From an uncultured bacterium (GTDB taxonomy: Bacteria > Patescibacteriota > Gracilibacteria > Absconditabacterales > Absconditicoccaceae), in contig CAMJDC010000002.1 of assembly GCA_946404285.1 (NCBI GenBank), positions 1 through 53,823 on the forward strand: a DNA stretch of 53,823 nucleotides, given 5' to 3'. Below, piece by piece: positions 10,306 to 11,868 of the stretch; the stretch's first letter is position 1, and each line of letters opens with the position of its first letter. The notes beneath the pieces are model-generated. The model saw only the letters and a program-made list of their open reading frames with translations. It was not told the origin of the DNA and did not search any database. The translations under genes and the position numbers were made by a program.

Positions 10306-10346
10306 CAATAGTACTAGAAAGAAATTGAGTAACCAGACGTACGATA
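10306..10346. repeat. 16S rRNA processing stem, 3' arm
   Basis: caatagtactagaaagaaattgagtaaccagacgtac is near-complementary to 11871-11906. Confidence 0.8.
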
Positions 10347-10364
10347 GGTTATAAGTTGTTTTTT

Positions 10365-11868
10365 CAAAATTAGAATGGTAGTCTATCCCCACGTTCCCGT
10401 AGGGATGCCTTGTTACGACTTAACCCCAGTCACTGATTTTCTCCTTAACCCACATGGTAAGTCTTCAAAGAACCTCAGCTCCCATGGTTTGACGGGCGGT
10501 GAGTGCAAGGAACAGGGACGTATTCACGGCAGTATGGCTGACCTGCCATTACTAGCAATTCCAACTTCATGTAGTCGAGTTCCAGACTACAATCCGAACT
10601 AGGGGTAGGTTTGAAGATTTGCTCCATCTCGCGATATTGCTTCTCGTTGTTGCTACCCATTGTATTATCTATGAGGCCCTAGATGTAAGGGGCATGAGGA
10701 TCTGACGTCATCCTCTCCTTCCTCCTGGTTACCCAGGCAGTCTCGCTAGACATACTAACTAGCGATGAGGGTTGCGCTCGTTTCCAGACTTAACTAGACA
10801 CCTTGCGGCACGAGCTGACGACGACCATGCACCACCTGTGCAAAGCTCTGTATTGCTACAAATATCATACTTTCATATGAGACACAATGCATGTCAATTC
10901 TAGGTAAGATTCTTGGCTTAGTATCCAATTAATCTAGATAATCCACTGCTTGTGTGTTCCCCCGCCTATCCCTTTGAGTTTCATTCTTGCGAATATACTA
11001 CCCAGGCGACTTGCTTAACTCGTTAGATTACGGCACTCCGACCACAAGGATCGAAACACCTAGCAAGCATAATTTACAGTTTGGACTACCGGGGTATCTA
11101 ATCCCGTTTGCTACCCAAACTTTCATCCCTCACCGTCAAGTTAATCATAGTTAGCTGCTTTCGCTTTCGGCGTTCTTTCCGATATCAACGCATTTCACCG
11201 CTCCACCGGAAATTCCACTAACCCCCAATAACTTCTAGATATGCAGTATCCATTCCCTTTCCACGATTGAGTCGTGGGATTTGAAAACAGACTTACATAT
11301 CAGGCTACGGATACTTTACGCCCAGTAAATCCGGATAACGCTTGAGACCTACGTATTACCGCGGCTGCTGGCACGTAGTTAGCCGTCTCTTATTCTTGGT
11401 GTACCGTCATTCGTCTTCCACCAAAAAAGAAGTTTACACACCGTAATGCTTCATCCTTCACGCGGGATCGCTGCATCAGACTTTCGTCCATTGTGCAAGA
11501 TTCCCCACTGCTGCCTCCCGTAGGAGTATGGGCCGTATCTCAGTCCCATCGCGGCTGGACATCATCTCAGACCAGCTACCTGTCATAGGCTTGGTGAGCC
11601 GTTACCTCAACCAACTACCTGATAGGACGCGCCCCCCTCCTTAAGCGATAAATCTTTCCTCGCATCGGCATTTCACCATCGTGAGCATATTGGGATTTAG
11701 CTACGTCTCCGTAGTTGTTCCCATCTTAAGGGCAGGTTAGGCACGCGTTACTCGCTCGTTTGCCACTAATTCTACTATGTATTGCTACAACGCAGAATCC
11801 GTTCGACTTGCATGTGTTAGGCGTTCCGCTAGCGTTCATCCTGAGCCAGGGTCAAACTCTTCAAAAAA
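10365..11868 (-). rRNA. rrs: 16S ribosomal RNA
   Basis: Reverse complement carries AAGAGTTTGACCCTGGCTCAG (5'), 530 loop, 1400/1492 regions and helix 45 ATCCCTACG-GGAA-CGTGGGGAT. Confidence 0.97.

Follow-up and report, generated by a model that had tools for sequence, protein, structure and literature searches.

The anti-Shine-Dalgarno (anti-SD) sequence of 16S rRNA normally pairs with mRNAs to locate start sites, and how bacteria choose starts without Shine-Dalgarno (SD) pairing is a standing question. Within the phylum of the bacterium studied here, SR1 RAAC1 and SR1 Aalbo are listed among the SD-scarce organisms that lack CCUCC and have no SD at their starts (category iv, PMC10783764), and the part of that source available to us gives no internal decay gradient, no loss of anti-SD clients and no leader element replacing the SD. 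The genome containing our locus belongs with category iv: its 16S tail lacks CCUCC, its starts show no excess of SD:anti-SD pairing, and every rrs found is without CCUCC.

More distant systems are alike in some respects and different in others. SD sequences are also rarely used in the Bacteroidia and Flavobacteriales, where a bS21-bS18-bS6 pocket has been described (PMC9976891, PMC8710568), and the anti-SD is degenerate in Chryseobacteria (UCUCA). Here, in contrast, there is no bS21 and no surviving SD-led rpsU, and UUUAU near -22 relative to the start codon is found instead. Leaders used in S1-mediated initiation (PMC5397173) share with ours a U-rich block similarly far upstream of AUG, and bS1 is encoded in our genome; the signal described here, however, is dominant, fixed in position, biased in sequence and without an adjacent SD, and bS1 would be its candidate binder. 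The anti-SD has likewise been lost from Carsonella and Hodgkinia (PMC10783764) and from the mammalian mitoribosome (PMC10582724). Unlike these, the present organism has a genome of about 1.1 Mb with bS1, IF3 and UGA recoded to glycine, open genes containing 48 TGA per 1000 codons. ARAGORN reports a tRNA-SeC(tca) of normal length at 4642-4715 (minus strand); this is most probably the tRNA-Gly(UCA) that decodes UGA under genetic code 25. Set against these systems, the family of our organism (f1) offers a graded anti-SD series running from intact to lost, in which SD is unused throughout, the anti-SD users are gone and a candidate replacement signal can be tested.

The 16S rRNA 3' end

The window, by which we mean the whole stretch of 53,823 nucleotides analyzed, carries a single-copy 16S rRNA gene on the minus strand (10371..11867) that matches Rfam RF00177 (SSU_rRNA_bacteria) over its full length (1352.5 bits, model 1-1533), with the end of the model falling at 10371. 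The gene ends in ATCCCTACG-GGAA-CGTGGGGAT-AGACTACCATTCTA. Helix 45 (10385..10406, minus strand) is whole, with nine pairs, one of them G-U, closing an intact GGAA dimethyl-A loop. The 3' tail that follows it (10371..10384, minus strand) reads AGACUACCAUUCUA as RNA, and its sequence together with the family comparison places a degenerate core, CCAUU (CCATT in the gene), where CCUCC is expected (10374..10378, minus strand). The initial annotation had described a 16S end with helix 45 intact and the CCUCC core missing, and both the sequence and the Rfam match bear this out. In line with an intact helix 45, the genome retains IF3 (infC, 3244..3900, minus strand; TIGR00168, E 3.9e-35) and a KsgA/RsmA homologue (E 2.5e-42, below the curated cut-off).

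The flanks of the 16S gene form a predicted precursor processing stem (3' arm at 10295..10343 and 5' arm at 11870..11905, both with approximate limits, minus strand; dG -53.5 kcal/mol). No CCUCC was found between the tail and this stem (10371 to about 10343). Since nothing resembling an anti-SD lies in that interval, extending the mature end would bring none back, and we reject an extended mature 16S 3' end as its source.

It is hardly credible that this rrs is non-functional or was produced by misassembly and that the metagenome-assembled genome simply lacks an intact copy. The assembly is indeed incomplete (70%, one rrs copy), but the near-complete congener G002 and the single-contig family genomes G011, G015 and G033 each have a lone rrs as well, and a second rrs with CCUCC was found neither in these four nor in the incomplete genome of the window. 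Congeners have the same or a similar tail. Because the AGACTACCATTCTA tail is identical in G004 and G006, and nearly all tails of the family are degenerate, the missing CCUCC is not a sequencing error.

The rRNA genes of the window are arranged 23S-5S-16S (10371-15095), not 16S-23S-5S, with the 23S gene at 15095-12181 and the 5S gene at 12059-11943, both on the minus strand. The same order occurs in six loci of the family (L013, L016, L020, L026, L028, L030), whereas a 1.5-kb span at L008 and L009 did not show it.

Decay of the anti-SD core within the family

We recovered 16S tails from 37 of the 50 genomes of the family, and nearly all are degenerate. Their cores range from CCTCC, intact in a single sampled genome (G014), through CCTCT, CCTTT and CTTCC to CCACC, CCACT, CCATC and CCATT. 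The family forms one clade (100% SH-aLRT) in a 16S tree from which the tail was left out. On this tree 13 different cores are spread among 27 rows, and the five bases of the core must have changed at least 14 times. The individual core columns change 3, 3, 3, 6 and 6 times within the family, which places them at the 71st-89th percentile of 16S column change rates, and two A's of the tail and its terminal UA hardly vary. The core thus changes fast while its flanks stay conserved, which argues that drift is open to the core but not to the tail overall. Loss of the core is itself already known, having been published for SR1; its gradual decay inside a family is new here, as are the disappearance of the known anti-SD users and the greater age of SD disuse.

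Shine-Dalgarno disuse and the loss of anti-SD users

Leaders were sampled from six f1 genomes representing five genera, loci flanking the 16S in further genera being too short for such statistics. Starts were called with a start chooser blind to SD and are computational, except for a homology-confirmed set in which homologues share the same N-terminus. Of the 957 pooled starts, 20 have an SD 4-mer upstream (2.1%, against 2.3% after shuffling), and among the homology-confirmed starts (n=139) 0.7% have an SD. In the E. coli control, the same pipeline detected SD at 57% of starts against 21% after shuffling. Other genomes sampled from the class, some with CCUCC intact, have SD before 2-9% of their starts, and only G037, which encodes a full-length Era, exceeds its shuffled control by a little (9% vs 4%). 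Given that SD is scarce even in class genomes that keep CCUCC, disuse of SD predates loss of the core. These frequencies, from a 450-kb sample of the window's genome and from five relatives, support the view, put forward in the initial annotation, that initiation would be independent of SD. A second rrs with CCUCC, an extended 3' end and SD enrichment were all sought, and none of the three was found.

A variant SD system, in which a shifted or altered anti-SD (CCAUUCU or CUACC) would pair with a matching SD (AGAAUGG or GGUAG), is very improbable. The leader of prmC does contain TGGTA near -8, complementary to the UACCA of the tail, and its AAGGGTGG, singled out earlier as the best exception to the absence of SD, is present; the case is isolated, however, since pairing between starts and the organism's own 16S tail is no stronger than in shuffled sequence (mean dG -0.99 vs -1.29 shuffled). 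Relatives likewise show no excess over shuffles, and the enriched words include no tail-complementary 5-mer. Variant SD/anti-SD pairs were likewise not found by Amin et al. (PMC6107228).

Our searches show the known anti-SD users (SD leaders, bS21, recognizable full-length Era and RF2) to be gone from family f1. The gene for bS21, rpsU, is an SD-led holdout in Flavobacteriales (PMC8710568); in f1, bS21 (PF01165) is absent by profile search, the sole match lying on a contig of G022 (C236, L216) whose genes use code 11 and which looks like contamination from another bacterium. No RF2 scored over the cut-off in f1, so the RF2 frameshift, which uses an internal SD (PMC8710568), is absent as well. 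Era reads GAUCACCUCC (PMC10582724), and no full-length Era was found in f1, full-length matches being confined to G037, G048 and G057, outside the family. The f1 matches to Era are tandem and partial, typical of the Der GTPase, and were rejected. We infer that loss of these clients was the cause that permitted the core to decay; since G014 keeps CCUCC though the clients are gone, their loss permits core loss and does not force it. Occlusion of the anti-SD as in Bacteroidia is rejected for this family, in which bS21 is absent and the core is absent rather than hidden.

A start-anchored element near -22

The initial annotation had remarked on A/T-rich leaders that often contain TTTATTT and almost never a GGAGG-like site. 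This holds across the window, where TTTAT or TTTTA begins at -28..-15 in 25 of 31 called genes. UUUUAU stands at -21 of infC (3916..3921, minus strand; called ATG start 3900), at -23 of a gene with its start at 36926 (36903..36908, plus strand) and at -22 of the genes starting at 18267 (18245..18250, plus strand) and 52883 (52861..52866, plus strand); a 903-aa gene starting at 7679 has UUUAU at -24 (7699..7703, minus strand), and prmC (start 8661) has UUUUA at -26 (8683..8687, minus strand). Pooled over the six f1 genomes, TTTAT climbs from a background of about 6 per position to 76 at -22, and the UUUAU/UUUUA peak there is common to all six. Among the homology-confirmed starts the element is found at -29..-13 in 71%, against 10% at a control position; about 30% are without the motif. 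This start-anchored element is new here, although an earlier description beyond the open-licence literature is possible. The published loss in SR1, the greater age of SD disuse relative to core loss and the anchoring of UUUAU to starts within the A/T-rich leaders were all absent from the initial annotation.

The main rival to a dedicated signal holds that a weakly structured A/U-rich leader and an AUG suffice, the U-rich block being a by-product without a reader of its own. We regard this as unlikely, though it has points in its favor. Predicted leader structure is weakest around -20..+10, the share of G within the U block drops to 4-6%, ATGs ahead of the start codon are slightly under-represented (81 vs 100-108), and unstructured A/U-rich leaders have been described for non-SD genes (PMC5397173). 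A pure structure model, however, predicts no fixed position, whereas the element is sharply placed, occupying -26..-17 without equal U-richness on either side. It is also more than U-richness: against a column-preserving shuffle TTTAT is in excess (146 vs 85 expected) while TTTTT sits at expectation (71 vs 70.6). Sequence specificity is weaker in G011, where TTTAT occurs 47 times against 35 and the top word is ATTTA.

Starts, which are mostly AUG, are separated from decoy internal ATGs by the element with an AUC of 0.75-0.81 in f1 and 0.55-0.66 in sister families, compared with 0.75 for the SD in E. coli. UUUAU at -22 therefore tells starts from decoys about as well as the SD does in E. coli, and gene callers that score SD would misplace starts in the f1 lineage. 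Leaders of the window's genome are in addition enriched in TCAGA/CAGAT at -31..-12 (16 vs 1.4 expected), perhaps as part of an extended AGAUUUUAU motif.

Promoters and leader length

We also considered whether the block belongs to a promoter or marks the transcription start of leaderless or very short-leadered transcripts, which we judge improbable. The block is A/T-rich, and G053, of the same class, has a leaderless-like TATAAT peak at -16. The window's genome, however, has canonical boxes upstream of the block, with TTGACA at -70..-61 (about -67; 14 vs 0.7 expected) and TATAAT at -50..-36 (about -44; 49 vs 13 expected). Judged by these consensus boxes, leaders in this genome would be about 30 nt long, which does not fit leaderless initiation. 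The distance of the element to AUG stays constant when the position of TATAAT shifts. Further, the element is common in operon-internal genes, defined as those whose start lies no more than 12 nt from the stop codon of the gene before (n=71; 51% vs 3%, p about 2e-11), where it falls mostly inside the preceding coding region, which argues that it is not a promoter.

Promoters in this genome lie at an almost fixed spacing from AUG, and for 221 of the 291 genes called in the sample the nearest called gene upstream is over 70 nt away from the start, operons being few. Leader types vary within the class: the TATAAT-like peak of G053 suggests leaderless transcripts, and in G052 the peak lies at -40..-28.

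A candidate reader and proposed mechanism

Pairing of UUUAU with 16S rRNA is rejected, because its complements ATAAAA and AATAAA are absent from the 16S, so that rRNA pairing is not the reader. The genome encodes a bS1 of 406 aa with S1 domains in tandem (NF005208, E 4.4e-82), and in E. coli S1 is known to contact U-rich RNA lying 5' of the SD (PMC5397173). We infer that bS1 is the best candidate reader of UUUAU. Relatives in which U-enrichment is weak encode bS1 too, and finding it is therefore no proof that it reads the element.

A model consistent with these observations would begin with the loss of the anti-SD users, after which the freed core drifts while the tail flanks and helix 45 remain constrained. 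Leaders are G-poor and weakly structured, with a start-anchored UUUAU/UUUUA centered near -22. bS1 would capture this leader, recruiting or positioning the 30S subunit by means other than rRNA pairing, and the unstructured AUG region would then be handed to the 30S together with canonical IF3. Taken as a whole, the explanation that the anti-SD was lost after its users and that the UUUAU leader is most likely read by bS1 is the one we moderately favor, as a reading of genome sequences. The stricter proposal is that SD pairing was replaced, before the anti-SD decayed, by a sequence-specific UUUAU near -22 read by a ribosome-bound protein, which may be bS1 or a lineage-specific feature of the platform; we see this as evenly balanced. 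As to the order of events, G014 retains CCUCC yet already has UUUAU and no SD, which argues that replacement preceded decay.

Precursor hairpins in sister families

In sister families (e.g. L005, L009, L011 and L012) the often degenerate anti-SD can pair just 3' of the 16S in the precursor, a hairpin that is gone from most of f1. The tail of family f7 (L011, L012) has CCGCC for CCUCC and can base-pair with a downstream arm that carries the compensating change. A variant SD matching this CCGCC tail was rejected: it shows no excess at starts and was not found in G053. Hairpin pairs across the sister families include CTCC..GGAG, TTCC..GGAA and GCCTC..GAGGC. Among 26 sequences, one of the pairs occurs as UA in 13 and as CG in 11, with 3-4 independent switches, a pattern suggestive of covariation.
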